Below the pieces are notes generated by a model that was not told the origin of the DNA, ran no database searches, and was given only the letters and a program-made list of their open reading frames with translations. Made by a program: the position numbers and the translations under genes. 64,000 nucleotides of DNA from contig NZ_JAJNCX010000002.1 of NCBI RefSeq assembly GCF_021026315.1, positions 124,001 through 188,000 on the forward strand, written 5' to 3'. Below, one piece after another: positions 6,663 to 63,144 of this stretch (positions are counted from its first letter, which is position 1; each line of letters starts with the position of its first letter). Source of the stretch: Rhizobium sp. C4 (GTDB lineage: Bacteria > Pseudomonadota > Alphaproteobacteria > Rhizobiales > Rhizobiaceae).

Positions 6663-7823
6663 CTAGACCAGGCTCTGGATGGTGTCGATCAGTTGCTGTT
6701 GGGCCGGCGTCGGCATCCAGCCGACGCGGGTGGTGATGCCGATCGGGCGCCGCGTCGTGCTGAGGTCAAAGCCGATCTCCCTCACGAGACCACGGGCCAC
6801 CTCCGCGCGTGCCTGCCCGCCGGACGTAAAGCCGAGATAGTCGGTCTGGCTCAGGATCTCGCGCATGAGGATCAGCGAGCCGGTTTCCACCAGTTGCCTT
6901 GGGGCAAGGCCATTATCTGCAAACAGCCGGTCGAAATGGTCGCGGATCGGGGTCGACGGGGCGCTGACGATCCAGGGGTAGTGTGCAAGTTGGGTAAGAG
7001 TGGGCGAGGCGCTCTGAAAGATCGGATGGTTGACGCGCGCAATCATCATGGCCGTATCCTGGAACAGCTCGACTTGCTCGATGTCATCGACCGGCGCGGG
7101 GTGGCGCAATGCGCCGATCAGAAAATCGATCTCGCCGTGCCTCAAGCCCGAAAGAAGCTCCGCATAGGCACCTTCCGTGACCTGGATCGTCTGCAATGGC
7201 CGCTCCTGCTGGAACCGGACGATCGCGGTCGGCAGAATGTGTGAGCGGGAGAGCGGCATGGCTCCGATGACGATCTTGCCGGTGGCCTCCGCGCGCAGCT
7301 CGGCAAGTTCGGCTTGCGCCTGCGACAGTTCGCTTAAGGCAAGGCGGGCGGCCTGGGCGAGGCTGTGGCCGAGCCGCGTTGCCAGAGTGCCACGCGCCGT
7401 GCGCTCGAAAAGTGCTCGCCCCGCCTCTTCTTCCAACTGGGCGACGGCGCGGTGGACTGTGGGCTGCGCCAGACCCAGTTGTCGGGCGGCCAGCGAGATG
7501 TTTTCGGTGTCGCGGACGGCGATCAGGGCTTCGATCTGCGCGGCGGTCACGGTGAGGCGAAGGCGCGGCGCGATAGCGTTGAGCACCGGATCGAGAATGG
7601 CAAAGACGCGCGCCGCGCGGCGACGAAATACCTCGCCTGCCGGGTTGAGGAAAAGGCCATGCGGCGTGCGGGTGAAAAGCGCCGCGCCCAGCATCGCCTC
7701 CAGCCGGGAAAGCGCCTGCGTGACCGCCGGTTGCGAGACCCGCACAGCCTCCGCAGCGCGGGTGACCGAAGCGGTTTCCGCCACCGCGAGGAAGACGCGG
7801 AGATGCCTCAGATTATGGCGCAT
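6663..7823 (-). CDS. LysR-family regulator with two tandem N-terminal HTH domains
   Basis: A 386-residue protein, about 80 longer than a normal LysR regulator. Residues about 5-63 are a LysR helix-turn-helix (SVTRAAEAVRVSQPAVTQAL) and residues about 94-152 are a second one (SLAARQLGLAQPTVHRAVAQL), followed by one substrate-binding domain. The ATG at 7823 overlaps the end of the upstream dehydrogenase gene by 11 bases, so the two are translationally coupled. It sits beside the galBCD-type operon and is the likely activator of it (a GalR analogue), by position only. Confidence 0.85.
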   Translation of the reverse strand: MRHNLRHLRVFLAVAETASVTRAAEAVRVSQPAVTQALSRLEAMLGAALFTRTPHGLFLNPAGEVFRRRAARVFAILDPVLNAIAPRLRLTVTAAQIEALIAVRDTENISLAARQLGLAQPTVHRAVAQLEEEAGRALFERTARGTLATRLGHSLAQAARLALSELSQAQAELAELRAEATGKIVIGAMPLSRSHILPTAIVRFQQERPLQTIQVTEGAYAELLSGLRHGEIDFLIGALRHPAPVDDIEQVELFQDTAMMIARVNHPIFQSASPTLTQLAHYPWIVSAPSTPIRDHFDRLFADNGLAPRQLVETGSLILMREILSQTDYLGFTSGGQARAEVARGLVREIGFDLSTTRRPIGITTRVGWMPTPAQQQLIDTIQSLV

Positions 7824-8712
7824 CGGATTGCATAGCCAGCGCGGCAAGGATGCGGTCGGCCCGCCCGGCAAGCGAGCTCTCGCCGCCCTCCAACTGCAGC
7901 GCGGCAATCTCTGCCTGCCAGTCGACAATCGCGCTGGACATCCGGTCGGGCAGGCCAAGTTCGCGCAGCGTCACGACCACCTCGCGCATTTCGGCGGCGC
8001 GGCGTTCGCCATGCACCATCATGCGCTCAAGATTGTAAGCGCTGCGCTTTTCCCAGTCGATGCCGGGGTCGGAGGCTTGCAGCGAGGCAATCACGGCGGC
8101 TTCGACGCCGGCCTTGCGCGCTGCGAGCATTGCTTCGGCGGTCAGCGCCTCCAGCCCCTTGATCATCACCGAGCGCAGCATCTTGATCGAGGAGGCCTCG
8201 CCGATGCGGGCACCCGCCACGCGCGGCTGCATTCCGAGGTCGGAAAGAACAGTGACGGCAGCTTCCGCGTCCGGGCCGCTCAACAGGAGCGGTGTTTCGT
8301 GCCGCTTCGGATGGACAGGTGCCATGACGGCGACATCGACATAGCGCCCGCCGGCCTTGCCGATGACCTCTGCCGACGCAAGTTTGGTGGCGGGGGAGCA
8401 GGAGTTGCAGTCGAAAAAGTAGGCGCCGGGGGCGATGGAGCGCGCAGTTTCGCGCGCGGCGTCATGCGCGCGGTCCGCAGTGACAAGGCTGAAGACCGCA
8501 CGGGCGCTCGCCACGGCCTCCGTGTTGGAAGCAGCCAGTGTGACCTGCGCCGCCCCGGCGGCAGCCTCGAAGGCGGAGCGTGTCTCGGCCGCTTCTGCCT
8601 TCGGATCGAAGGCGGCGATTTCCATGCCGTCAAGCCGCCGCCAACCGGAGGCGAAGGCACGGCCGGCCTCGCCAAAGCCGATGACGGCGAGCTTCAAATG
8701 GTTGGTTTGCAT
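7813..8712 (-). CDS. 6-phosphogluconate-dehydrogenase-like NAD(P) oxidoreductase (DUF1932 type)
   Basis: A 299-residue dehydrogenase. The N-terminus is a Rossmann fold (VIGFGEAGRAF) and residues about 190-260 look like the DUF1932 C-terminal domain of the beta-hydroxyacid dehydrogenase superfamily. The ATG at 8712 has a perfect GGAGGAG site; a longer start at 8760 is not supported. It diverges from the gallate-type operon across 160 bases and is cotranscribed with the tandem-HTH LysR gene. It could act on a ring-cleavage semialdehyde or on a hydroxy acid; the substrate is unknown. Confidence 0.75.
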   Translation of the reverse strand: MQTNHLKLAVIGFGEAGRAFASGWRRLDGMEIAAFDPKAEAAETRSAFEAAAGAAQVTLAASNTEAVASARAVFSLVTADRAHDAARETARSIAPGAYFFDCNSCSPATKLASAEVIGKAGGRYVDVAVMAPVHPKRHETPLLLSGPDAEAAVTVLSDLGMQPRVAGARIGEASSIKMLRSVMIKGLEALTAEAMLAARKAGVEAAVIASLQASDPGIDWEKRSAYNLERMMVHGERRAAEMREVVVTLRELGLPDRMSSAIVDWQAEIAALQLEGGESSLAGRADRILAALAMQSDAP

Positions 8713-8872
8713 GTCTCCTCCGGCCTCTCCCGATTTGCGGGAGGATGCGCCGGAAGGCACCGTAAATCCAGTGCCTATAGCAAAAACTTATGAGTCTTCA
8801 CGCGCTTTGAAATTGGCAAAGGCGGCTTCAGGGTCGAGATTGATAGTGAGGATTTAGTCCCGGGAGGACACG

Positions 8873-9607
8873 ATGGGAGAGAAGAAGACCGCGCTGGTCA
8901 TCAGCGCACATGCCGCCGATTTCGTCTGGCGCTGTGGCGGTGCGATCGCGCTTCATGCGGCTCAGGGCTATGAGGTGACCGTTGTCTGCCTCTCCTTCGG
9001 CGAGCGCGGCGAATCCGCCAAGCTATGGAAGCAGAAGGACATGACGCTGGAGCGCGTCAAGGTGGCGCGTCGGGCCGAGGCGAAAAAGGCGGCGGAAGCG
9101 CTGGGCGTTCACGATCTCGTCTGCTTCGATCTGGGTGACTATCCGCTGCGGCTGACGGAGGAGGACAAGTTACGCCTCGTCGATGTCATCCGCGCCGTGC
9201 AGCCGGCCTTCATGATGAGCCATTCGCACTATGACCCCTATAATACCGACCACATGTATGCGACGCAGGTGACTCTGGAAGCGCGGATGATCGCGCAGGC
9301 CTGGGGCCACAAGCCGGGGGAGAAGGTGCTGGGCGCACCGCAGCTCTATCTCTTCGAGCCGCACCAGACGGAGCAGATGGGCTGGAAGCCGGATGTCTTC
9401 CTCGACATCACGCCTGTATGGGACAGGAAGCGCGCGGCGATCGAGTGCATGGAAGGCCAGGAACATCTCTGGGACTTCTACACCCGCGTTGCGCAGAACC
9501 GCGCCAACCATTTCCAGCGCAATTCCGGCGGCCAGTCCAGCGGGCGCGCCGCCCAATATGCCGAAGGCTTTCAATCCGTTTTCCCGCGCACGGTGGACAC
9601 GCTATGA
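8873..9607 (+). CDS. galB: 4-oxalomesaconate hydratase, GalB-like (PIG-L/LmbE family)
   Basis: A 244-residue zinc hydrolase-fold protein of the PIG-L family. It carries SAHAADFVWRCGG in place of the usual AHPDDE loop, the form I associate with GalB, and a HSHYDPYNTDH metal motif. GalB hydrates 4-oxalomesaconate to 4-carboxy-4-hydroxy-2-oxoadipate in gallate catabolism. The start has GGGAGG upstream and the TGA overlaps the next ATG (ATGA). The following dioxygenase, aldolase and tautomerase genes support the assignment strongly. Confidence 0.85.
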   Translation: MGEKKTALVISAHAADFVWRCGGAIALHAAQGYEVTVVCLSFGERGESAKLWKQKDMTLERVKVARRAEAKKAAEALGVHDLVCFDLGDYPLRLTEEDKLRLVDVIRAVQPAFMMSHSHYDPYNTDHMYATQVTLEARMIAQAWGHKPGEKVLGAPQLYLFEPHQTEQMGWKPDVFLDITPVWDRKRAAIECMEGQEHLWDFYTRVAQNRANHFQRNSGGQSSGRAAQYAEGFQSVFPRTVDTL

Positions 9608-10569
9608 CCGAACCCTGCTTTGACATCGCCCATCTCGCCCATGTCGAGATGTATACGGACCGGTTCGAGGAAAGCCTCGCCTTCTTTGTCAATGTCTACG
9701 GCCTCACCGTCTCCGGCCAGGATGAGACCTCCGCCTATCTCCGGGCCTATGACGACTATGAATTCCACACGCTGAAGCTCACCCGGCATCACACGACCGG
9801 CGTCGGCCATATCGCCTATCGCACCTCGTCGCCGGAAGCGCTGGAACGGCGCGTGAAGGCCATCGAGGCAAGCGGCTACAAGGTGCTCGGCTGGGTAGAC
9901 GGCGATCTGGGCCACGGCCGCGCCTTCCGCTTCGAAGATCCCTTCGGCCATGTCTTCGAGATCTATTGGGATACGGTGCGTTATGAGGCGCCTGAGGGCG
10001 AGCGCCCGGCGCTGAAGAACATCGCCCAGCGCTATCATGGCCGCGGCGCAAACCCGCGTCGGCTCGATCATCTGAACCTTTTGGCCGCAGACGTCAGCAA
10101 ATTCCGCGATTTCATGATCACCTGCCTCGGCTCGCGGGTGACGGAATATATCCAGCTCGACAATGGCCGGATCGGCGGCTGCTGGTTCACCATCAACAAC
10201 AAGACCTACGATCTGGCCTGCACGGAAGAACATGGCGGGGCCTCCGGGCGGCTGCATCATGTGACCTATGCCACCGATACGCGGGAAGACATTCTGCGTG
10301 CCGCCGATATCTTCCTCGAAAACGGCGTTCATATCGAAACCGGGCCGCATAAGCATGCCATTCAGGGCACGTTCTTCCTCTATGTCTGGGAGCCTGCAGG
10401 TAATCGTGTGGAGCTCGCTAATTCCGGTGCACGGCTGATCCTCGCACCCGACTGGAAGCCAGTCTGCTGGACCGAGACCGAGCGGAAGAAGGGCCAGGCC
10501 TGGGGCCTGAAAACGATCGAGACCTTCCACACCCACGGCACGCCGCCGGTCGCGAAAAAGGATCACTGA
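9604..10569 (+). CDS. VOC-superfamily type I extradiol ring-cleavage dioxygenase
   Basis: A 321-residue two-module VOC protein. The C-terminal module keeps the iron ligands His156 (LDHLNLL), His219 (LHHVTYA) and Glu270 (RVELANSG), plus His251 and Tyr260 at the spacing of catalytic residues in BphC-type enzymes, so it should be active. Known gallate and protocatechuate 4,5-dioxygenases (GalA, DesB, LigAB) belong to the unrelated LigB family. Here the gene lies between galB and galC with ATGA overlap on one side and a two-base gap on the other. Gallate or a close triol carboxylate is the inferred substrate because galBCD need 4-oxalomesaconate. Confidence 0.85.
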
Positions 10570-10571
10570 AC

Positions 10572-11243
10572 ATGGGCGTCGTGGTGCAGAACATCCCACG
10601 CGCCACGCGTGAGGTCATCGACGGTCTTGCCCGTGCTGGTGTTGCGACCGTTCATGAGGCGCAGGGCCGGAAGGGCATGCTGGCGAGCTATATGCGGCCG
10701 ATCTATCTGGGTGCGTCCGTCGCGGGCTCGGCCGTGACGATCTCCGCCCCGCCCGGCGACAACTGGATGCTGCATGTGGCCATCGAGCAGGTGCGCGAGG
10801 GCGATCTGCTCGTGCTGGCCCCGACCTCGCCCTGCGACAATGGCTATTTCGGCGATCTGCTTGCGACATCCGCCAAGGCGCGGGGCTGCCGAGGTCTGAT
10901 CATCGATGCAGGCGTGCGTGATATCCGCGACCTGACGGCGATGGGCTTTCCGGTCTGGTCGAAGGCAATCTCGGCGCAAGGCACGGTCAAGGAGACGCTG
11001 GGCTCGGTCAATGTGCCGATCGTTTGCGCTGGCGCGCTGATCGAGGCTGGCGATGTGGTCGTTGCCGATGACGATGGGGTCTGCGTCGTCAAATCTGCCG
11101 AGGCGGCGGACGTGCTGAAGGCGGCGGAGAAGCGGCTTGCCAATGAGGAAATGAAGCGCAAGCGTCTTGCCTCCGGCGAACTGGGCCTCGACATGTACGA
11201 CATGCGCGGCGCGCTCGCTGCCAAGGGGCTGACATATGTATGA
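10572..11243 (+). CDS. galC: 4-carboxy-4-hydroxy-2-oxoadipate aldolase (GalC/LigK type, RraA fold)
   Basis: A 223-residue RraA-like class II aldolase. It splits 4-carboxy-4-hydroxy-2-oxoadipate into pyruvate and oxaloacetate. The nucleotide-free RraA core is visible, with [11 protein letters not shown] and the [12 protein letters not shown] segment that holds the Arg-Asp pair used with the divalent metal. It starts two bases after the dioxygenase stop codon and overlaps the next gene by eight bases, so it is in the same transcript. Confidence 0.9.
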
Positions 11244-12294
11244 GGATGGAATCCCCTGCCTCTGGATGCGGGGCGGCACCTCGAAGGGCGCCTATTTCCT
11301 CGGCGAAGACCTGCCAGCTGATGTAAGCGAGCGCGATCGGCTTCTCCTCTCCATCATGGGCTCGCCCGATCCGCGCCAGATCGATGGCATTGGCGGGGCG
11401 GACCCACTGACCTCGAAGGTGGCGATCCTGTCGCAATCGAGCCGGCCGGATGCCGATGTGGACTATCTCTTCCTGCAAGTCTTTGTCGATCAGGCGCTGG
11501 TCAGCGGTGCGCAGGGCTGCGGCAATATTCTGGCCGGCGTCGGGCCGGCGGCGATCGAGCGCGGGCTGATGAAGGCCGAGGATGGGGAGACCGAGGTTCG
11601 CATCCATATGGTCAATACGGGTGAGGTCGCCGTGGCGCGGGTGGCGACGCCGGGCGGCCGTGTGACCTACAGCGGCGAAACGGAGATCGCCGGCGTGCCG
11701 GGCAGACATGCAGCCGTGCCGCTTCTTTTTACCAATATCGCAGGCTCGATGTGCGGCGCGCTGTTGCCGACGGGGCAGGCAGTGGATGTCATCGACGGCA
11801 TCGAGGCGACGCTGATCGATAACGGAATGCCTTGCGTCATCCTCCGCGCGTCCGATGTCGGCCTGTCGGGCGCGGAAAGTCGTGACGAACTGGAGGCGAA
11901 TGCGGCGGTCAAGGCGCGTATCGAAGCCATCCGCCTTCAGGCAGGACCGTTGATGAAACTGGGCGATGTCACGACGGCGTCCGTGCCGAAGATGGTTCTG
12001 GTTGCCCCGCCGAGCGCTGGCGGTGCGATTTCGACGCGAAGCTTCATTCCGCACCGTGTCCACGCCACGATAGGCGTCTTTGCCGCGATTACGGTGGCGA
12101 CTGCGACACGACTGAAGGACGGTCCTGCCGCGGCGCTGTCTGTTCAACCCGACGGCGGGCGCTATCTCATCGAACATCCGACCGGATTGACGGAGGTGTT
12201 TCTCGATCTCGACGCTGCGGGCAATGTCAAAGGCGCCGGCTCGATCCGCACGGCCCGCAAGCTTTTCGACGGGCGGGTTTTCCCGGTGGTGTGA
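11236..12294 (+). CDS. galD: 4-oxalomesaconate tautomerase (GalD/LigU type, PrpF family)
   Basis: A 352-residue PrpF-family isomerase of diaminopimelate-epimerase fold. It opens with the family block [14 protein letters not shown] and has QGCGN and the late [15 protein letters not shown] segment. GalD and LigU convert keto and enol or double-bond isomers of 4-oxalomesaconate so that the hydratase can act. The start overlaps galC by eight bases. With galB and galC this completes the lower gallate pathway; no LigI-type lactonase is present in the window. Confidence 0.88.
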
Positions 12295-12464
12295 TCCCGT
12301 CTGCTGCCTGCGTCTCGCGCCACGGGGTGGCGTCGCCCCGCATTGTCGGAGGGGGCGGTTTCGGTGGCTGGATTTTCAGGCACCCATTGATTTGGTGGGC
12401 TGCCGTCATTCCCTCACAGCATGGGACACGATGTGCCGACGATCTGCTGCGGCCCGCCTTTTGA

Positions 12465-12836
12465 TCAAGCCACCTTTCTTGGGGATGCCATCACCATATC
12501 AACGTGGATGTTTTCAAACGGGCAATTCAGCTGACCGCGCTCATTCTTCTCGATCAGCCCCAGTTCGATCAGCGCCGCTGCATCTTCATGGACACGCTTG
12601 ACGTCCCGGCCCAATCGCCGCGCAAGTTCCCGTACGCCGACCGTACCGCTTCCCAAAAGCGCGTCCAGCATTTGCCAACGGCGTTCGGTCAGCCGCGAGA
12701 AAAATGCGCCCGGCGTCTCGAAATTGAGCGTTTCGCCCTGATACTCCCCGGTCTTGACACCGGTTTCAGCGCGTTTTCCGGCTGCACGCAATGCCGATTT
12801 CCAGTCTGGTTCCGTGGTGATCGTCAATGCTCTCAT
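12465..12836 (-). CDS. HVO_A0114-type HTH antitoxin/transcriptional regulator
   Basis: A 123-residue winged-helix protein. Residues about 50-105 hold the HTH (VGVRELARRLGRDVKRVHEDAA), and the protein is typical of the antitoxin partner of TumE/DUF6516 toxins. Its ATG overlaps the stop of the upstream toxin gene by four bases (ATGA), the usual order for this pair. It is intact although the toxin is frameshifted. It probably binds and represses its own promoter. The pair interrupts the aromatic module between galD and metF. Confidence 0.75.
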   Translation of the reverse strand: MRALTITTEPDWKSALRAAGKRAETGVKTGEYQGETLNFETPGAFFSRLTERRWQMLDALLGSGTVGVRELARRLGRDVKRVHEDAAALIELGLIEKNERGQLNCPFENIHVDMVMASPRKVA

Positions 12837-13227: not shown

Positions 13228-14160
13228 TTACCCGATCGCCGCCTGGGGCTCGGCCGGCGTCTGCCGGTTCATCCAGTCGGTCGCATTGCGGATGCCGCCG
13301 AGCGGGAAGACATGGACCTGTGAAATCAGGCTTTCCGGATTGCGGGCCTTGTATTGCGCCAGACCGGTCACAACCTCCGTCGGCTCGTAGGGTGTGAGCA
13401 GGCGGGTGACATCCATGGCGCGCTTCTGCAAGACTTTCAGCGACGGACCGACGCCGCAGGACAGTGCAAACTGGATCAGCGTCTGCAGCTTCGCCGGCCC
13501 GGCAATGCCGACATGGATCGGCAGGCGGACGCCGAGATCGGCGATGCGTTCGGCCCATGTCGTGACGGCAGTAGCGTCGAAAGCAAATTGCGTCACGATG
13601 GCCATGTCGGCATCGGTGCGTGCGGAGAAATCCTGCTTCCATAGCAGGCTCGCATCGACCTGCGCGGTGGAACCATCCGCATCGATATCCCGATTGCCTT
13701 CCGGGTGGCCGGCAACATGCAGGTGCGTGAACCCGTAATGATCGAACAGGCCGGTCTCGATGAGCTGGATGGCGCTTCCCAGTGCGCCTTCCGGCTTGGC
13801 GATGCCGCCGCCCAACAGCAGCGCCTGCGTCACGCCGGCCTCTTCGCGATAGCGGCGGATCCAGGTTTCCAGCGTCGCGGTATCGGGAATGATGCGGGCG
13901 GGGATATGCGGCATGACCGGAAAACCTTCTTCGGTCAGTCGCCGGGCGGTGGCCAGCATGTCATCGAACGGCGTTCCGACGATATGGGCGACATAGACCC
14001 TTGTTTCGGGTGGCAGCAGGGCCTTGAAGCTCTCGATCTTGGCGGCCGTGCGCGGCATGACTTCGATCGACCAGTTGTCGAGAAAGCTGGCTGCCTCCGG
14101 CGTCACGCCGCCCGGCATGGCTCTGGAGTCCACGCGACTTCCGAAATTCAACAAAGCCAT
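13228..14160 (-). CDS. metF: methylenetetrahydrofolate reductase (MetF-like)
   Basis: A 310-residue MTHFR-family flavoprotein. It has the HIVGTPFDD, MPHIPAR and LLLGGGIAKPEG segments of the TIM barrel and the late GVHxF-like IHVGIAGPA and QVHVFPLGG strands. In this context it would run as a methyl-THF oxidase, returning methyl groups from aryl O-demethylation to 5,10-methylene-THF, as the MetF partner of LigM does in Sphingobium. The start has a GGAGGAG-like site, and an ATGTATACAT palindrome lies 26 bases upstream, shared with the demethylase promoter. Confidence 0.82.
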   Translation of the reverse strand: MALLNFGSRVDSRAMPGGVTPEAASFLDNWSIEVMPRTAAKIESFKALLPPETRVYVAHIVGTPFDDMLATARRLTEEGFPVMPHIPARIIPDTATLETWIRRYREEAGVTQALLLGGGIAKPEGALGSAIQLIETGLFDHYGFTHLHVAGHPEGNRDIDADGSTAQVDASLLWKQDFSARTDADMAIVTQFAFDATAVTTWAERIADLGVRLPIHVGIAGPAKLQTLIQFALSCGVGPSLKVLQKRAMDVTRLLTPYEPTEVVTGLAQYKARNPESLISQVHVFPLGGIRNATDWMNRQTPAEPQAAIG

Positions 14161-14431: not shown

Positions 14432-15163
14432 ATGAAAGTCAGCGAAGCAGCCACGCATGGCCGCAGGGCCGTTATCGAACTGCGCGAAAAGATCGTCAGC
14501 GGCGAATTGCCGGGCGGCATGCGCCTGTTCGAGGTGTCGCTGGCTGAAACGCTGGAAATTTCGCGCACGCCGGTGCGTGAGGCACTATCCCGACTGGCCG
14601 AAGAGGGGTTGCTGGACCGGTTGCCGAATGGCGGCTTCGTCGTACGCCGTTTCGGCTATGCCGACGTGATCGATTTCATCGAGCTGCGCGGGGTCATGGA
14701 GGGCACGGCGGCGCGGCTTGCGGCCGAGCGCGGGGCCTCGACGGAGGGGCTGGCCCGGCTGCATGACATCGTCGCCCGCATCGATGCCTGTTTCGGCGAG
14801 GGTGACGACGTCGATTTCGACGCCTATTCGGACCTCAACGAGGACTTCCATCGCGAGCTCGCCGGACTGTCCGGCAGCGAGGTGATCCGCCGCGAGGTCG
14901 AGCGCGCCTCGGCGCTGCCATTCGCCTCGCCCTCGGCGTTTCTGCCCAACAGGCTGGAAATCGTCGCCTTCCGGCGCTCGCTCCGCTCGGCGCAGGAGCA
15001 GCACAAGGCGATCGTCCAGGCGATTGTGTGCCGGGAGGGCGCGCGGGCGGAATTCGTTGCACGCGAGCACGCGCGCACAGCCCGGCATAACATTGAATAC
15101 ATTTTCAACAAGGACCCGGATCTTCTGGCCAAGATCCCCGGTCTTGCGCTGATCCATCGCTAA
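14432..15163 (+). CDS. GntR family regulator, FCD subfamily, of the O-demethylation module
   Basis: A 243-residue regulator with a GntR winged helix at about residues 10-72 (GGMRLFEVSLAETLEISRTPVREAL) and an FCD domain behind it. The start at 14432 follows AAGGGGA. It lies between the divergent metF-like gene and the LigM-like gene, both of which carry ATGTATACAT near their start, so it most likely represses them in the absence of a methoxylated aromatic or its demethylated product. It resembles VanR-type control by position and family only. Confidence 0.85.
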   Translation: MKVSEAATHGRRAVIELREKIVSGELPGGMRLFEVSLAETLEISRTPVREALSRLAEEGLLDRLPNGGFVVRRFGYADVIDFIELRGVMEGTAARLAAERGASTEGLARLHDIVARIDACFGEGDDVDFDAYSDLNEDFHRELAGLSGSEVIRREVERASALPFASPSAFLPNRLEIVAFRRSLRSAQEQHKAIVQAIVCREGARAEFVAREHARTARHNIEYIFNKDPDLLAKIPGLALIHR

Positions 15164-15292: not shown

Positions 15293-15321
15293 AAGCGATA
15301 TTGCCAATGGGAGGAACCACT

Positions 15322-16734
15322 ATGGCTGCATCCAGTCTGTCCGACATCATGAAAGAAAACCCCGACATTGTCGGGCGGCTCCGCAATTCGAAGATCGGGA
15401 TGTATGTATACCCGGTCGTCGCGCCGGAATTTGCCAACTGGCGCGATGAGCAGGCGGCTTGGCGCCATTCGGCCGTTCTGTTCGATCAGTCGCATCACAT
15501 GGACGAACTGATCGTGGAAGGGCCGGATGCCGAGGCATTTCTCGCCTATCACGGCATCAATTCCTTCTCGAATTTCGATCTCAACCGCGCCAAGCATTTC
15601 GTGCCGGTGACCCCGAACGGCCATGTCATCGGCGACCACATCATCTTCCGCGAGCGCAAGGACAAGTTCATCCTCGTCGGCCGCGCTCCGACCTCGAACT
15701 GGCTGATGTTCTGCGCCGCCTACGGCAAGTGGAATGTCCGCATCAAGCACGATCCGCGCTCGCCGTCGCGGCCCGAGGGCGAGCGCGTGTTCCGCACGCA
15801 TTACCGCTACCAGATCCAGGGGCCTGAGGCCTACAAGATCTTCGAAAAGCTGAACCGCGGCCCGATCCCGGAAATCAAATTCTTCCATGTTGATCAGATC
15901 AATGTCGGCTCCAAGAAGGTGCAGGCGCTGCGCCACGGCATGTCCGGCGCGCCGGGCCTGGAAATCTGGGGTCCCTATGACGACAAGAACTACATCCTGA
16001 GCTGCATTCTCGAAGCCGCAAAGGAAGCCAATGTCGATCTCGTTCGCTGCGGCAGCCGCGCCTATTCGACCAACACGCTGGAATCCGGCTGGATCCCGTC
16101 CCCGCTGCCAGGCATCTATACCGGCGACGGTATGCTGCAGGCCTATCGCGAATGGCTGGGTGCGGATTCCTACGAAGCCACGGGCGCCATCGGCGGCAGC
16201 TATGTCTCGAACAATATCGAGGACTATTACGTTAACCCGTTCGAACTCGGCTATGACTTCTATATCGGCTGGAAGAAGGACGACTTCATCGGCAAGCAGG
16301 CACTCCTAAAACAGAAGGAGCAGAAGAACCGCAAGAAGGTGACCTTCGAGTGGAACGCCGAAGACGTCGTCGAAGTCATCGCCTCGGCCTTCCGTCCGGG
16401 TGAGGATCACTACAAGTGGATCGACTTCCCGCAGCCGAACTATGCTTCCACCAGCGCTGACCTGATCCTCGACCAGAGCGGCAAGCGCGTCGGCATGTCG
16501 ATGTTCAACGGCTATTCCTATAACGAACGCTGCCTGCTTTCGCTCGGCATCGTCGATCCGGATATCAACGAAGGCGACGTGCTGACGCTGGTCTGGGGCG
16601 AGCCCGATGGCGGTTCGGGCAAGACGTCGACCGAGCGCCACAAGCAGGCCAAGATCCGCGTCCGCGTTTCGCCGACGCCTTATGCCCGCGAAGCCCGCGA
16701 GAACTATGCCGATAGCTGGCGCACCAAGCGCTGA
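15322..16734 (+). CDS. tetrahydrofolate-dependent aryl O-demethylase (LigM/DesA type, GcvT family)
   Basis: A 470-residue GcvT-fold protein, the length of LigM (about 470) and longer than glycine-cleavage T protein (about 370). It transfers the aryl methyl group of vanillate, 3-O-methylgallate or syringate to tetrahydrofolate. It starts MAASSLSDIM and shows SHHMDELIVEGPDAEAFL, the ALRHGMSGAPGLE block and the ELGYDFYIGWKKDDFIGK block of this family. I use the ATG at 15322, with GGGAGG eight bases upstream, not the in-frame 15301. The metF-like gene and gallate genes nearby suggest 3-O-methylgallate or syringate as substrate; vanillate remains possible. Confidence 0.85.
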   Translation: MAASSLSDIMKENPDIVGRLRNSKIGMYVYPVVAPEFANWRDEQAAWRHSAVLFDQSHHMDELIVEGPDAEAFLAYHGINSFSNFDLNRAKHFVPVTPNGHVIGDHIIFRERKDKFILVGRAPTSNWLMFCAAYGKWNVRIKHDPRSPSRPEGERVFRTHYRYQIQGPEAYKIFEKLNRGPIPEIKFFHVDQINVGSKKVQALRHGMSGAPGLEIWGPYDDKNYILSCILEAAKEANVDLVRCGSRAYSTNTLESGWIPSPLPGIYTGDGMLQAYREWLGADSYEATGAIGGSYVSNNIEDYYVNPFELGYDFYIGWKKDDFIGKQALLKQKEQKNRKKVTFEWNAEDVVEVIASAFRPGEDHYKWIDFPQPNYASTSADLILDQSGKRVGMSMFNGYSYNERCLLSLGIVDPDINEGDVLTLVWGEPDGGSGKTSTERHKQAKIRVRVSPTPYAREARENYADSWRTKR

Positions 16735-16852: not shown

Positions 16853-17554
16853 TCACGAAACGCTCAGCAGCGAATCCAGCCTCTCCGGATCGTCCAGCAG
16901 TGCCTGCGAGGTCCCGCGATAGGTGACTGCCCCGCGATCGAGCACGACGGCCTCATCGGTCAGCGGCAGGATCTTACGGGCCTTCTGCTCGATGATGATC
17001 GCCGACATGCCTTCGTCTCTCACGATGCGACGGAGTGCTGCCAGCAATTCGTCGACGATGATCGGCGCGAGGCCTTCCAACGGTTCGTCCAGCAGAAGCA
17101 GCTTGGGGTTCAGCATCAGGGCACGGGCGACGGCGAGCATTTGCTGTTCGCCGCCGGAAAGCTGGTTGCCCATATTGCGTCGCCGTTCTTTCAGGCGCGG
17201 AAACATCTGGTAGGCGCGCTCAAGTGACCAGGGGCCGGGCCGGGCGGTGGCGGTCAGGTTTTCCTCGACGGTGAGCGATGGGAAGATGTTACGCTCCTGC
17301 GGCACCCAGCCGATGCCGAGAGGAGCGCGCTGCTCGGGCCGCAGGCGTGCGATGTCGCGGCCTTCAAAATGGATTGCGCCGGCGTGGTGGGTCGTGACGC
17401 CGGCAATCGTGTCCACCAGTGTCGTCTTGCCGGCACCGTTGCGCCCAAGAAGGGCGAGCGACCGGCCGGCCTCCACGGTCAGATCGACATGCGACAACAC
17501 GCGCGCCTCGCCATAGCCGGCAACCAGTTTCTCGATGCGAAGCAGGGCCGCCAT
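16853..17554 (-). CDS. branched-chain-type ABC transporter ATP-binding protein (LivF-like)
   Basis: A 233-residue ABC ATPase with Walker A GRNGAGKTT, signature LSGGEQQ and Walker B LLLLDEP. It is the second ATPase of a Liv/HAAT importer. The ATG at 17554 overlaps the LivG-like stop (TGATG); a GTG one codon upstream is possible. Last gene of a five-gene importer operon (21389 to 16853). The neighbouring demethylase and the shared operator suggest an aromatic acid as cargo rather than an amino acid. Confidence 0.87.
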   Translation of the reverse strand: MAALLRIEKLVAGYGEARVLSHVDLTVEAGRSLALLGRNGAGKTTLVDTIAGVTTHHAGAIHFEGRDIARLRPEQRAPLGIGWVPQERNIFPSLTVEENLTATARPGPWSLERAYQMFPRLKERRRNMGNQLSGGEQQMLAVARALMLNPKLLLLDEPLEGLAPIIVDELLAALRRIVRDEGMSAIIIEQKARKILPLTDEAVVLDRGAVTYRGTSQALLDDPERLDSLLSVS

Positions 17555-18297
17555 CACGCGTCCTCCCCGAGATAGATGGCTTTGACCTGCGGGTCGCGCG
17601 CGATTTCCTCGACCGTGCCTTCGGCGAAGAGCGCACCGGCCGCCAGAACCGAAATGCGGTCGGCAAAGGAGAAGACGAGGTCCATGTCATGTTCGATCAG
17701 CACCACGGTCACGTCCTCAGGCAGAGACCGCACGATGGCGAGAACTTCCTCGCGCTCCTCTTCCGGCACGCCGGCAGCGGGTTCATCGAGCAGCAGCACC
17801 TTGGGCTTTGCGGCGATGGCAAGGGCGATTTCAAGCAATCTTTGCTTGCCATATGGCAGCAAATTTGTCGATACTGCCATAACGTGCGCGAGACGGAAGC
17901 GTTCCAGCGTCGCGAGGGCCTCTTCGGCAACATCGCGATCGGCAGCAAGCGTTCGCCAGAAGCGACGGCCATGCCCCTTGCGCTCGCCGATGGCCAGCAT
18001 CATCGACTCAAGCGGCGTCAAGTCTCCGAAGAGCTGGTTGATCTGAAATGTCCGTGACAGGCCGCGCGCGACACGGGCGTGCGCGGGCAGCGTCGTGATA
18101 TCCTCGCCGCCGAGCAGGATCTGTCCGCTGGTCGGTGCGAAGACCCCGGTGAAGAGATTGATCAGCGTCGTCTTGCCGGCGCCGTTCGGGCCGATGAGGG
18201 CGTGGCGCGCACCCTTCCGGATCGAAAGCGAGACGTCATGCGTCGCAGTAAAGCCGCCGAAACGCTTGACGAGGTTGCGGGTCTCCAGCGCCATCAT
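17554..18297 (-). CDS. branched-chain-type ABC transporter ATP-binding protein (LivG-like)
   Basis: A 247-residue ABC ATPase with Walker A GPNGAGKTT, a LivG-type degenerate signature (LPYGKQRLLEIALA) and Walker B VLLLDEP. It pairs with LivF to power the importer. Its ATG overlaps the LivM-like stop by four bases. Confidence 0.87.
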   Translation of the reverse strand: MMALETRNLVKRFGGFTATHDVSLSIRKGARHALIGPNGAGKTTLINLFTGVFAPTSGQILLGGEDITTLPAHARVARGLSRTFQINQLFGDLTPLESMMLAIGERKGHGRRFWRTLAADRDVAEEALATLERFRLAHVMAVSTNLLPYGKQRLLEIALAIAAKPKVLLLDEPAAGVPEEEREEVLAIVRSLPEDVTVVLIEHDMDLVFSFADRISVLAAGALFAEGTVEEIARDPQVKAIYLGEDA

Positions 18298-19292
18298 CGC
18301 GCATCCTCCGCCGGTTTGCCCCGCAGGCGCGCGGCAAGGAGAAGAGGCCAGCCAGTCAGCCGTTCGCGGCCGATCATGACGATCGCAACGAGGATCAGGC
18401 CGATCCAGAACATCCAGTATTGCGGTGTGGCGACCGACAGCCAGTCGCGCAGCAGCGTGAAGATGATCGCTCCGAATATGCCGCCATAGAGATAGCCCGC
18501 CCCGCCAATGACGAGGACGAGGAGAACATCGGCGGAGCGGTGAAAGGCCAGCACGTCGGGCGAGACGAAATTGGTCGTCTGTGCGAGCAGCGCGCCAGCC
18601 ATTCCCGCATAGGCCGCCGAGACCGAATAGATGGCGACGATCCGTCGCTTCGGCGAGATGCCCAGCATGGCGGCACGACGCGGGTTGCGCTTGATCGCCA
18701 TCAGCGAGAGGCCGAAGGGCGAGTTGACGATGCGTCGCGCGACGAAAGTCAGGACGATCAGCACGGCGAGGCAGTAGATGTAGCCGTTACGTCCGTAGAG
18801 ATCGAACTCGAAGAGGCCGAGAATGGGGCTCATCGAGATGCCCGAAAGCCCGTCCGCCCCGCCGGTCAGCCAGGTGGCCTGGTTGCCAAGCTCGGCCAGC
18901 AGCATGGCCACCCCGAAAGTCGTCATCAGCCGTGTGAGGTCCGAGCCGCGCAGCACGAGGAAGCTTGTGGCAAGGCCGAAGAGGCCGCTGATGAGACCGG
19001 CGAAGACAAGGCCGGTGACGGGTTCGCTGACATAATCGCGCGCCAGAATTCCAGCCGCATAGGCCCCGAGCCCGAAGAAGGCGGTATGGCCGAGTGAGAC
19101 GATGCCCGCATAGCCGAGGATGAGGTCGAGCGACACGGCGAAGAGCGCCAGGATCGCAATCTCGGTCAGGATCAGCAATTGTGAGGGCAGGATGAAGATC
19201 GCGGCGACGGCCAGAAGCCAGAGTGCGATTTCCCAGAGGCGCCACCGGTGCCTGGCATTCAGGAATTCGGAGGCCTGTGTGTGGTGGGTCAT
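18294..19292 (-). CDS. branched-chain-type ABC transporter permease (LivM-like)
   Basis: A 332-residue membrane protein with about ten hydrophobic segments and the family block GYAGIVSLGHTAFFGLGAY near residue 65. An EAA-like loop (AIKRNPRRAAMLGI) contacts the ATPases. It overlaps the LivH-like gene by four bases (ATGA). Confidence 0.87.
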   Translation of the reverse strand: MTHHTQASEFLNARHRWRLWEIALWLLAVAAIFILPSQLLILTEIAILALFAVSLDLILGYAGIVSLGHTAFFGLGAYAAGILARDYVSEPVTGLVFAGLISGLFGLATSFLVLRGSDLTRLMTTFGVAMLLAELGNQATWLTGGADGLSGISMSPILGLFEFDLYGRNGYIYCLAVLIVLTFVARRIVNSPFGLSLMAIKRNPRRAAMLGISPKRRIVAIYSVSAAYAGMAGALLAQTTNFVSPDVLAFHRSADVLLVLVIGGAGYLYGGIFGAIIFTLLRDWLSVATPQYWMFWIGLILVAIVMIGRERLTGWPLLLAARLRGKPAEDAR

Positions 19293-20149
19293 CGACGGCC
19301 CTCCCGGCTGAAGAGGCCGTTGGGCCTCAGGATCAGCACGAGGATCATCACCGCATAGATGATGAAGGCGCCGGCCTGCGGCAGATAATATTTGCCGGCG
19401 ACATCGGCGATGCCGAGAAGGAGCGCGGCGATGAAGGGGCCGGTGATGGAGGACGTTCCGCCGACCGTGACGACGATCATGAAATAGATGAGGAATTTCA
19501 GCGGGAAATTCGGATCGAGCCCCAGCATGTCGGCGCCCAGCGCGCCGCCGAGGCCGGCAAGGCCGGAGCCGAGCGCGAAGGTGAGCACGAAAATCGTCGA
19601 GACATTGATGCCGAGCCCGCGCGCCACGCGCCCGTCATCGACGGCGGCGCGGAGCTGGCTGCCGAAGCGCGTTCTGGTCAGCGCAAGCTGGAGCGCGACG
19701 ACAAGAACGGCGCAGATGAGGATGACGAAAAGCCGGCTGCGGCCGATGCCGATGCCAAAAAGATCGAGCCGGCCGCGCAGTTCGGCGGGCAGGTTGATCA
19801 GCTGCTGCTGGCCGCCCATGAAGTAATCCGCCGCCGCAATCGCCATGAAGACGAGGCCGATGGAAAACAGCACCTGGTCGAGATGCGAGGCCCGGTAAAG
19901 CCGTCGATAGAGTGTGACTTCGAGGATGGCGCCGACGAGCGCGGTCACCAGAAAGGCCGCCGGCAGGCACCAGTAGAAGGAGATGCCATAGCGGTTCATC
20001 AGGATCACGGTGACATAGCCACCCGCCATGGCGAAGGCGCCGTGGGCGAGATTGACGAAATTCATCAGCCCCAGCGTGATCGACAGGCCGCAGGCCAGGA
20101 TGAAAAGCAGCATTCCATAGGCGACGCCGTCGAACAGGATCGTCAGCAT
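19289..20149 (-). CDS. branched-chain-type ABC transporter permease (LivH-like)
   Basis: A 286-residue membrane protein with about eight hydrophobic segments. It has the LivH opening (LFDGVAYGMLLFILACGLSI) and the NFVNLAHGAFAM block. It forms the translocation channel with the LivM-like protein and follows the binding-protein gene by 70 bases. Confidence 0.87.
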   Translation of the reverse strand: MLTILFDGVAYGMLLFILACGLSITLGLMNFVNLAHGAFAMAGGYVTVILMNRYGISFYWCLPAAFLVTALVGAILEVTLYRRLYRASHLDQVLFSIGLVFMAIAAADYFMGGQQQLINLPAELRGRLDLFGIGIGRSRLFVILICAVLVVALQLALTRTRFGSQLRAAVDDGRVARGLGINVSTIFVLTFALGSGLAGLGGALGADMLGLDPNFPLKFLIYFMIVVTVGGTSSITGPFIAALLLGIADVAGKYYLPQAGAFIIYAVMILVLILRPNGLFSREGRR

Positions 20150-20219
20150 GGTCTCTCCCGGTTACACGGCGGGAGCTTCACTCCCGCCGCCGGTTTCGGA
20201 AAGATCAGTGACCTTCAGA

Positions 20220-21389
20220 TCACTTGGCGACGAAGGGGTCGTGGATCTTCTTGAAGGTGTCGAACTCGATGTTGTAGAGCTCGCCGTCCTTCTTCTCGAC
20301 CTTGCGGATATAGATATCCTGCACGATGTCGCGGGTGGCGGGATCGATGGAGATCGGCCCGCGCGGGCTTGTCCATTCCGCGCCCTTCATGGCCGTGATC
20401 AGCTTCGTTCCATCCGTGTCGCCATTGGTCTTGGCAAGCGCGGCATAGGCCAGATGCATGGCATCAAAGCCACCAACGGCCATGAAATTCGGCCTTATCT
20501 TGGCGGTGTCCTTCACCTGCTTCACGAAGGCCTTGTTTTCCGGGCTGTCATGGGCGGCCGAATAGAAATGGCCGGTGATGACCCCGAGCGCCGGATCGCC
20601 GATGGCGCCGAGCAGATCGTCGTCCGTCACGTCGCCCGTGGCGATCAGCTTGATGCCTGCATCCGCCAGACCGCGATCGACGAACTGCTTCATGAACAGC
20701 GAGCCGACGCCTGCCGGCACGAAGACGAAAACGGCATCCGGCTTGGCGTCGCGCACACGCTGCAGGAAGGGCGCGAAATCAGGGTTCTGCAGCGGCACAC
20801 GCACCGCCTCGACAATCTCGCCGCCATCCTTCTTGAACTCGTCGGTGAAGCCCTTTTCGATATCATGACCCGGACCATAATCCGTGACGAGGGTGACGAC
20901 CCGTTTCAGGCCATTCTTCGCCGCCCAGGTGGCGACGGGAACGGCCGATTGCGGCCCGGCCATGGAGGTGCGGGCGAAGTAATCCGACTTCGACATGATG
21001 GCCGATGTCGTGGCAGAGGTGATGATCGCCGGGACCTTCGCCTGGCTGATGACCGGGGCGACCGCCATGGCGAGCGGCGTGAGGCCGAAGCCCATCAGCA
21101 TCGATACCTTGTCGTTGACAATCAGCTCCTGCGCGATGCGGCGTGTCTGGTCCGCCGTGCCGGCATCGTCGCGCAGCACGATCTCGACCTTCTTGCCGCC
21201 GGCCGTGTCGCCATTGAGTGCCATGTATGCACGAACGCCGGCTTCAACCTGCCGGCCTGTCGAGGCGAATGGTCCGGTCATTGGCAGGATCAGGCCGATT
21301 TTGACCGTATCGGCCGCCATTGACGGTGCTGCCGCCGACAGCATGGCAATTGCCGCTGCGCTTGCGATGAGATGACGTCTGGTGATCAT
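20220..21389 (-). CDS. ABC transporter substrate-binding protein (Liv/HAAT type)
   Basis: A 389-residue periplasmic binding protein. Residues 1-26 are a signal peptide (MITRRHLIAS..., hydrophobic core, ASMA-like cleavage), with a twin-arginine pair. The mature part starts DTVKIGLILPMTGPFASTG, typical of type 1 periplasmic-binding folds. I choose the ATG at 21389 because GGGAGG is eight bases upstream; the ATG at 21395 is too close to it. An ATGTATACAT operator lies about 115 bases upstream. The regulon suggests a methoxylated or hydroxylated benzoate as ligand. Confidence 0.85.
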   Translation of the reverse strand: MITRRHLIASAAAIAMLSAAAPSMAADTVKIGLILPMTGPFASTGRQVEAGVRAYMALNGDTAGGKKVEIVLRDDAGTADQTRRIAQELIVNDKVSMLMGFGLTPLAMAVAPVISQAKVPAIITSATTSAIMSKSDYFARTSMAGPQSAVPVATWAAKNGLKRVVTLVTDYGPGHDIEKGFTDEFKKDGGEIVEAVRVPLQNPDFAPFLQRVRDAKPDAVFVFVPAGVGSLFMKQFVDRGLADAGIKLIATGDVTDDDLLGAIGDPALGVITGHFYSAAHDSPENKAFVKQVKDTAKIRPNFMAVGGFDAMHLAYAALAKTNGDTDGTKLITAMKGAEWTSPRGPISIDPATRDIVQDIYIRKVEKKDGELYNIEFDTFKKIHDPFVAK

Positions 21390-21813
21390 GTGCATTTCCT
21401 CCCGTTTGTCGTTTCGACAAGCTGATCGCCAGCGGCAAATCCGGAACGGAAAGAGCGCTCCTCCAAGCACTTTCCCTGAGCGATCGCTCCATGATGGTTG
21501 TCAATGTATACATACATATCAGGGGTGCACAAGATACGTTCTTGAGCCACGGGCCGGTTGTGGGCGCCCCGCTGACCGGGCAACCTGCGAAGAATTTGCC
21601 GTCCGGCCGCCGTGTTCCACATTCAGGCCGCCCCTGCCGGCGGTCCGCAAGGCATGTGCTGGCAACATCGAGAAATCGGTGCCATTCCGGGGCGAGGGCC
21701 GGGGCGTTGTGTTGTGCTGGCAGGCAATTTGCCCGGATTGCATTGGATGCTGGCAGATGAGACTGTCAGGTCCGGAACACGCAACTCTGTTTGATGGAAG
21801 GTTGGCAGGCGCA
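21390..21813. other. 424-base divergent intergenic region with a regulatory palindrome
   Basis: The stretch separates the importer operon (minus) from the SDR gene (plus). It holds one ATGTATACAT site at 21504-21513 followed by a partial repeat ACATATC. I see no convincing coding frame; the open frames here lack a ribosome-binding site and family features. Confidence 0.6.
21504..21513. promoter_or_regulatory. ATGTATACAT operator, importer/SDR promoter region
   Basis: Third perfect copy of the palindrome. It lies about 115 bases upstream of the substrate-binding protein start and 300 bases upstream of the divergent SDR gene. It links the importer to the demethylase and metF-like genes. Confidence 0.65.
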
Positions 21814-62205: not shown

Positions 62206-63144
62206 ATGACCGTAAAAATCTTCAACCGGCCCGATATCCAGGACTTCCTGAAGACGCTGAGCGGCTTCGACCAGAGCGGCGGCAATCCGCGCGTCAAGGA
62301 AATCACCCACCGCATCGTCTCCGACCTTTTCAAGGCCATCGACGACCTGAACATCACGCCGGACGAATACTGGGCCGGCATTGCCTGGCTCAACGAAATC
62401 GGCGCGGCCGGGCAGGCGGGCCTCATCTCGCCCGGCCTTGGCATCGACCATTTCCTCGACGAGCGGCTTGACGCGATCGACGCCGAACTCGGCATCGAGA
62501 ACCCGACGCCGCGCACCATCGAAGGTCCGCTTTATGTCGCCGGCGCTCCCGTTTCGACCGGGTTTGCCCGTCTCGATGACGGCGCTGACGAAAACGGCCA
62601 CACGCTGATCATGCATGGCACGGTCTATGGTGCCGATGGCAAGCCGATGCCGGGTGCGAAGGTCGAGGTCTGGCACTGTGACACGCGCGGCTTCTATTCG
62701 CATTTCGACCCGACCGGCAAACAGGCGCCGTTCAACATGCGCCGCACGATCATTGCCGACGACAAGGGTGGCTACAAGTTCCAGAGCATCCTGCCGAGCG
62801 GCTACGGCGTGCCCCCGGGCAGCCCGACCGAACAGCTGCTGTCGGCGCTTGGCCGCCACGGCCAGCGCCCGGCGCATATCCACTTCTTCATCAGCGCAGA
62901 CGGTCACCGCAAGCTGACGACGCAGATCAACATCGAAGGCGATCCGCTCATCAATGACGACTTCGCCTATGCGACCCGCGATGGTCTGGTGCCTTCGGTG
63001 ATCGAACGGACGGATGAAGCCAGCATCCATGCCAACAACCTGAACGGCCCGTTTGCCGAGATCGTCTTCGACATCCGCCTGACGGCGCTGATCGACGGCG
63101 TCGACAATCAGGTCAACGAGCTGCGCAAGCGCGCCGCCGCCTGA
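62206..63144 (+). CDS. catA: catechol 1,2-dioxygenase
   Basis: A 312-residue intradiol dioxygenase. The iron ligands are Tyr164 (GFYSHFD), Tyr200 (SGYGVPP), His224 and His226 (PAHIHFF), matching the numbering of Acinetobacter CatA. It opens catechol to cis,cis-muconate. The start has TGGAGGA upstream. It receives catechol from the iac Rieske step. Confidence 0.93.
   Translation: MTVKIFNRPDIQDFLKTLSGFDQSGGNPRVKEITHRIVSDLFKAIDDLNITPDEYWAGIAWLNEIGAAGQAGLISPGLGIDHFLDERLDAIDAELGIENPTPRTIEGPLYVAGAPVSTGFARLDDGADENGHTLIMHGTVYGADGKPMPGAKVEVWHCDTRGFYSHFDPTGKQAPFNMRRTIIADDKGGYKFQSILPSGYGVPPGSPTEQLLSALGRHGQRPAHIHFFISADGHRKLTTQINIEGDPLINDDFAYATRDGLVPSVIERTDEASIHANNLNGPFAEIVFDIRLTALIDGVDNQVNELRKRAAA

Follow-up and report, generated by a model that had tools for sequence, protein, structure and literature searches.

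A VOC-fold enzyme as the probable gallate dioxygenase of a galB–galC–galD operon in Rhizobium sp. C4

Rhizobium sp. C4 carries a compact operon in which three genes of the lower gallate pathway, galB, galC and galD, are joined by a gene for a two-module extradiol dioxygenase of the VOC fold. The operon lies in the window analyzed here, a 64-kb stretch of the 5.2 Mb genome (positions 124,001–188,000 of contig NZ_JAJNCX010000002.1, hereafter C12). Genomic evidence makes it probable that the VOC enzyme converts gallate to 4-oxalomesaconate in one ring-opening step, replacing the LigB-fold enzymes GalA and DesB. In the proposed route, this enzyme, which has the fold of type I catechol 2,3-dioxygenases, would open the gallate ring between two hydroxylated carbons, GalD would tautomerise the 4-oxalomesaconate so formed, GalB would then hydrate it, and GalC would split the product into pyruvate and oxaloacetate. 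The gallate would be taken up from the surroundings or, in this strain, made from 3-O-methylgallate by a LigM-type demethylase. What is new is the pairing of a known pathway with a known superfamily, along with an unexpected catalytic residue.

An earlier sequence-only reading of the window described galB-, galC- and galD-like genes overlapping or abutting the VOC gene at 8873–12294, and the open reading frames and family scores agree with it (Table 1). The galB and VOC genes overlap by 4 bases, a 2-base gap separates the VOC gene from galC, and galC and galD overlap by 8 bases. Matches to family models and to solved structures, i.e., 5cgz (a 4-oxalmesaconate hydratase) for GalB and 6p3j (a (4E)-oxalomesaconate delta-isomerase) for GalD, indicate that galB, galC and galD are encoded together, as expected of a gal pathway. 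A scan of 8600–12700 for promoters and terminators gave nothing usable, with one promoter-like site against 1.0 expected and four terminator-like sites against 2.3.

Table 1. Genes of the operon and its neighborhood (window coordinates), with the family and structure matches used to name them.
Feature	Position	Strand	Evidence
galB-like PIG-L family 4-oxalomesaconate hydratase	8873..9607	+	PF02585 83.7 bits; 322.8 bits to GalB structure 5cgz
Two-module VOC-fold extradiol dioxygenase, proposed gallate dioxygenase	9604..10569	+	PF00903 80.5 bits; TIGR03211 298.2 bits (cut-off 320.2); 364.8 bits to PDB 9wgj
galC/ligK, 4-carboxy-4-hydroxy-2-oxoadipate aldolase	10572..11243	+	TIGR02798 379 bits (cut-off 304.5)
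galD/ligU, 4-oxalomesaconate tautomerase	11236..12294	+	NF033377 500.7 bits (cut-off 440); 487.2 bits to 6p3j
DUF1932/NAD-binding oxidoreductase, divergent from operon	7813..8760	-	PF09130 61.8 bits
LysR-type regulator, true start uncertain	6663..7958	-	PF00126, PF03466
Methylenetetrahydrofolate reductase-like gene	13228..14160	-	TIGR00676 31.1 bits, far below its cut-off; no Pfam match
GntR/FCD regulator adjoining demethylase	14432..15163	+	PF00392, PF07729
LigM-type vanillate/3-O-methylgallate O-demethylase	15316..16734	+	NF047885 648.1 bits (cut-off 580)
Branched-chain-type ABC transporter (two ATPases, two permeases, binding protein)	16853..21470	-	PF00005, PF02653, PF13458

The system shares GalB, GalC and GalD with the gal pathway of Pseudomonas putida KT2440 (GalA, GalB, GalC, GalD), as described in passages of PMC12314914 and PMC9942251. 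According to the same passages, 4-oxalomesaconate is the compound on which these three enzymes begin, and it is also the direct product of gallate cleavage. The proposed difference lies in the ring opening, assigned here to a VOC-fold enzyme rather than to the LigB-fold GalA, which was not recognized in the C4 genome.

The association of the VOC gene with gal genes recurs across a wide range of bacteria. It was followed in the best 80 of 564 contig stretches encoding a relative of the VOC protein; because all 80 encode a VOC protein at least 81% identical to that of the window, the counts hold for the closest kin only. All four genes are found together in 57 of the 80 loci, more than chance would give, and at least one gal gene accompanies the VOC gene in 64. 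The four-gene loci range from Rhizobium to Pantoea and the roseobacters, in several arrangements: galB–VOC–galC–galD in 35, galD–galC–galB divergent from the VOC gene in 6 (all enterobacteria), galC–galB–galD divergent from it in 6, VOC–galB–galC–galD in 4, among other orders. Nine enterobacterial loci with gal genes encode gal proteins 56–64% identical to those of the window and a VOC protein 83–86% identical, so the VOC gene seems to have been combined with another gal set there. Where galD is missing from the locus (n = 19), it was found elsewhere in 18 of the genomes (E ≤ 1e-60), with 17 over the model cut-off; the single genome lacking it (L078) has galB in the locus.

Sixteen annotated records give names to this pattern, one of them lacking a gene table. 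The VOC gene is found with galB, galC and galD in Agrobacterium tumefaciens, Agrobacterium vitis, Thioclava, Roseibium, Rhizobium sp. Q54, a Paracoccaceae strain and Pantoea piersonii, and with galC and galD in a second A. tumefaciens record. On one Agrobacterium pAt plasmid, from a walnut isolate, a tannase gene (437.9 bits) directly follows galD. A gene for an aromatic acid/H+ symporter adjoins the VOC gene in P. piersonii, and relatives of it are found in 10 of the 80 loci, 8 of them at 81% identity or more.

The link also holds at the level of whole genomes. In a survey of 150 genomes of the order (VOC and galD matches at E ≤ 1e-60, GalA-model matches at E ≤ 1e-40), 18 encode the VOC enzyme. 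Matches to galD occur in 17 of these 18 and in 37 of the 132 others (Fisher p ~6e-8, only a guide since the genomes are related), and in 12 of the 13 VOC genomes that have no GalA-model match.

A search for PF02900 (LigB-type) found no match in the window, in line with the earlier claim that no LigAB-type gene lies there. Two PF02900 proteins are encoded in the C4 genome. One resembles 4,5-DOPA dioxygenase (168.6 bits, below the cut-off of 233). The other (C12:28865–29557) is divergent and scores at best 67.4 bits on the GalA model, for which the cut-off is 412, and it was rejected on that score as a hidden gallate dioxygenase; its gene adjoins a regulator and a small gene that reads as SnoaL/NTF2-looking. 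No GalA-model match at E ≤ 1e-40 was found in the C4 genome, and thus neither a GalA/DesB-type gallate dioxygenase nor the LigAB or GalA gene that the sequence-only reading had named as evidence against itself was recognizable there.

Searches with the GalA model (E ≤ 1e-40) and a LigI query (E ≤ 1e-45) covered 50 of the 80 VOC genomes. A GalA-model match is absent in 46; of the other four, three have matches below the cut-off and one has a true GalA. Together with the recurring VOC–gal link, this lends genomic support to the non-orthologous gallate (or methoxygallate) dioxygenase that had been postulated from the window alone. A LigI match is absent in 28 of the 50, and 25 have neither a LigI nor a GalA-model match. 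LigI is needed for the protocatechuate route and for the pyrone branch of the methylgallate route, as set out in parts of PMC12314914 and PMC9942251 and in line with established knowledge. The earlier statement that the window lacks LigI extends to the whole C4 genome, where no match was found in a search that stood without a positive control, the same query having matched in 22 of the 50 VOC genomes. The idea that LigI is a generally required partner of the VOC enzyme was set aside on these counts. Among the PF04909 proteins of the C4 genome, one amidohydrolase (contig C45, 170–172 kb) gave no match to solved LigI, and the other three were covered by the LigI search only. The gene for that amidohydrolase directly follows a folD-like gene and may belong to a one-carbon or hydroxycinnamate locus.

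The VOC protein itself is close to proteins of Rhizobium sp. C1 and a Rhizobiales isolate (97% identical), its nearest named relatives. It shares with catechol 2,3-dioxygenase and homoprotocatechuate 2,3-dioxygenase (HPCD) two VOC modules, a 2-His-1-Glu metal site and the second-sphere residues H251 and Y260, and the modules and metal site place it among type I extradiol dioxygenases. It differs from both in missing the cut-offs of their models, TIGR03211 for the former (Table 1) and TIGR02295 for the latter (202 against 321.4 bits). Residues were counted in an alignment to HPCD of 114 rows, which represent 109 distinct relatives once five identical pairs are allowed for. The metal ligands H156, H219 and E270, as well as H251 and Y260, are unchanged in all 109. 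The earlier reading had described the catalytic site as complete, and this stands for the iron ligands, His251 and Tyr260. It does not stand for the second-sphere catalytic histidine expected of type I enzymes (His200 in HPCD; His194 in BphC, according to a portion of PMC3962378), since Tyr202 occupies that place and the site is therefore not the standard extradiol one.

The tyrosine is a property of the group. It is found in all 94 distinct relatives of at least 70% identity, in which His249 and Ala272 are also kept throughout, and in 12 of the 15 below that level, those 12 being at least 59% identical. Histidine is found at this place in the three most distant relatives (L144, L154, L167), in the structures 3lm4 and 3hpv, and in HPCD. 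Two further HPCD residues are replaced: Arg243 and Arg293, which serve the carboxylate, correspond to Thr246 and Gly297 in the VOC protein. Thr246 and His249 are candidate ligands of the gallate carboxylate. On a tree of 41 rows, a single change suffices for the Tyr state (branch support 100/98), and a 27-row clade containing the window protein is supported at 100/99. The exact position of the change is unsure because long branches meet near 9wgj. When HPCD and 3hpv served as outgroups, the terminal branch of each reached length 10 and the root was not credible; the tree was rebuilt without them. An AlphaFold2 model of the VOC protein, built from 21 rows, had a mean pLDDT (model confidence) of 63.7, with much of the C-terminal half below 50, and was left out of the pocket analysis.

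Replacement of His200 in HPCD can switch cleavage from extradiol to intradiol. In a section of PMC10760822, this residue is described as acting first as base and then as acid, so that the proton of the catechol is passed to dioxygen; in its absence the rate becomes vanishingly small. BphC has a catalytic histidine at the place of the one in DesB (PMC3962378, in the part consulted). Given that the residue needed in HPCD is replaced here, the VOC enzyme may handle the proton through Tyr202 or through gallate's own third hydroxyl. A broader scenario is offered tentatively, at rather less than even confidence: a clade of VOC-fold gallate dioxygenases without the proton-shuttle histidine, in which transfer of the proton by Tyr202 or the third hydroxyl would confer triol specificity by substrate-assisted catalysis. 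In that scenario, gallate ring opening would have been invented a second time, independently, and passed on horizontally among plant-associated bacteria.

The nearest solved relative by sequence is PDB 9wgj (Table 1), which also has Tyr at the His200 place and differs in having Leu and Ser at the places of Thr246 and His249 and Cys at that of Ala272. Its deposited name, "Catechol 1,2-dioxygenase," is that of an intradiol enzyme, on a VOC-fold protein; the label could be an error or could reflect intradiol cleavage. A literature search on the PDB code found no paper.

A number of observations weigh against gallate as the substrate of the VOC enzyme. The histidine described as critical in HPCD is the one it lacks. 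In 16 of the 80 loci, no gal gene was found in the fetched flank, some flanks ending at contig ends. On a plasmid of Pantoea sp. At-9b, the VOC gene stands among ABC transporters without gal genes, and on a plasmid of Chimaeribacter arupi (L170, 10085–12969), it stands near LysR and pirin-family genes, again without gal genes, in a genome that has galD. No tannase gene turned up in the 80 loci. LigI relatives, at least 46% identical to a Roseomonas LigI orthologue, lie near the VOC gene in 7 of the 80. The 44 genomes of the order over the galD cut-off include 16 with the VOC enzyme, 15 with a LigB-type match, 5 with both and 18 with neither, and the model also matches in E. coli; it therefore finds proteins of other roles too. 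The true GalA mentioned above belongs to Rouxiella badensis (826.3 bits), on the same contig as galD, with the VOC gene on another contig. Across the order, GalA-model matches are found in 5 of the 18 VOC genomes and 12 of the 132 others (p 0.035), a weak positive link that counts against simple mutual exclusion. In three of those five genomes (G070, G082, G106), the LigB-type gene is in the same locus as the VOC and gal genes, and among the 80 loci such an arrangement is found in two (L045, from the same genome as G082, and L074). This is what would be expected if LigAB takes protocatechuate and the VOC enzyme takes gallate.

Among other substrates, 3-O-methylgallate is a possible main or second one. 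If it were the chief substrate, the cleavage product would have to lose methanol, through an esterase or by closure to 2-pyrone-4,6-dicarboxylate (PDC), before GalD, GalB and GalC could act. Such a route finds encouragement in the LigM-type demethylase gene beside the operon, with ligM sharing the VOC locus in 9 of the 80 cases and forming a single run with the VOC and gal genes in, e.g., L041 and L077, in the LigI relatives noted above, and in carboxylesterase genes adjoining galD in A. vitis. It is nevertheless improbable: LigI goes unmatched in the C4 genome and most of the VOC genomes searched, and LigM in the same locus would convert 3-O-methylgallate to gallate, of which the demethylase is a possible source.

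Still less probable is protocatechuate as the substrate. The VOC enzyme would then be a 4,5-dioxygenase whose product reaches 4-oxalomesaconate through a dehydrogenase, perhaps the DUF1932 protein, and a PDC hydrolase. LigM can also yield protocatechuate, and DUF1932 relatives are encoded in 42 of the 80 VOC loci. More distant relatives (~62% identical) stand among different genes. On a Thermus oshimai plasmid (L150, 9965–14631), the VOC gene (62%) is found with genes for PIG-L, ligK, DUF1932 and DUF6282 proteins and a 4-hydroxybenzoate 3-monooxygenase, with no galD among the genes listed, an arrangement that may encode protocatechuate breakdown of the 4,5 type in which a VOC dioxygenase is paired with a new PDC hydrolase. 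A Roseomonas relative stands with a class III dioxygenase, the LigI orthologue (262.4 bits to 4d8l), an alpha/beta hydrolase and ligK, and a Methylobacterium relative with ligK and an amidohydrolase; DUF1932 relatives are present in both loci. From these contexts it may be guessed that carboxylated catechols are the substrates of the Tyr clade in general. Against protocatechuate in Rhizobium sp. C4 stands, besides the missing LigI matches, a protocatechuate 3,4-dioxygenase, pcaGH, with both subunits over their cut-offs (361.1 and 233.7 bits), so protocatechuate has another way there. LigAB and LigI together, the mark of protocatechuate 4,5-cleavage, were not recognized in this genome; LigC was not searched for. 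LigAB-type genes in the VOC locus of three genomes of the order would also be redundant with such an enzyme.

It is similarly implausible that the protein is an ordinary catechol 2,3-dioxygenase lying by chance beside gal genes fed by an unrecognized LigB-fold enzyme, a reading suggested by its best NCBIfam model, by public records that so name some relatives and by the divergent LigB-fold gene on the same contig, since the protein falls below that model's cut-off (which the Roseomonas and T. oshimai relatives pass, at 354.9 and 332.2 bits), the association recurs across orders and rearranged gene orders, the LigB-fold protein scores far too low on the GalA model, and it is the His-bearing outgroup from Thermus thermophilus, not the window gene, that stands among catechol meta-pathway genes.

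The assignment of gallate cleavage to the VOC enzyme therefore remains the preferred one, and it would set a type I fold beside the type II enzymes DesB, GalA, LigAB and DesZ, with a like gallate reaction on an unrelated fold (LigB fold according to portions of PMC3962378 and PMC4250580). In the parts consulted of the AromaDeg (PMC4250580) and DesB (PMC3962378) papers, all the dioxygenases named for gallate, methylgallate and protocatechuate 4,5-cleavage are LigB-fold proteins. In a literature search on gallate, no VOC-fold gallate dioxygenase was recognized from titles and the starts of abstracts; most subscription journals lay outside its coverage, and an earlier description is possible.

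Hydrolysable tannins contain gallate as their acid, and the breakdown of syringyl lignin passes through it. Many plant-associated bacteria probably open this tannin unit with an enzyme from outside the textbook protein family. If so, gallate use has been missed or mislabeled as catechol degradation in rhizobia, agrobacteria, roseobacters and the Pantoea/Erwinia group, and genome surveys based on galA, desB or ligAB (e.g., PMC12314914, judging from passages of it) undercount it. The exchange of His for Tyr also offers a natural test of how protons move in extradiol enzymes.

The LysR gene upstream is the likely regulator of the operon, with a LysR relative (>35% identity) found in 39 of the 80 VOC loci; its product shows two HTH_1 stretches, as though the DNA-binding part were doubled. 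The start of ligM was taken at 15316, and an earlier TTG at 15301 is open too. The methylenetetrahydrofolate reductase-like gene, found in 5 of the 80 loci, possibly serves the demethylase. The ABC transporter is a possible importer of aromatic acids, and a similar one lies between the DUF1932 gene and galB on two Agrobacterium plasmids. Farther away, two intradiol dioxygenase genes (PF00775) on the same contig, one within the window (62518–63084, i.e., C12:186518–187084) and one at C12:97308–97874, have the same score of 232.9 bits and are perhaps a recent duplication of a hydroxyquinol or catechol 1,2-dioxygenase gene.

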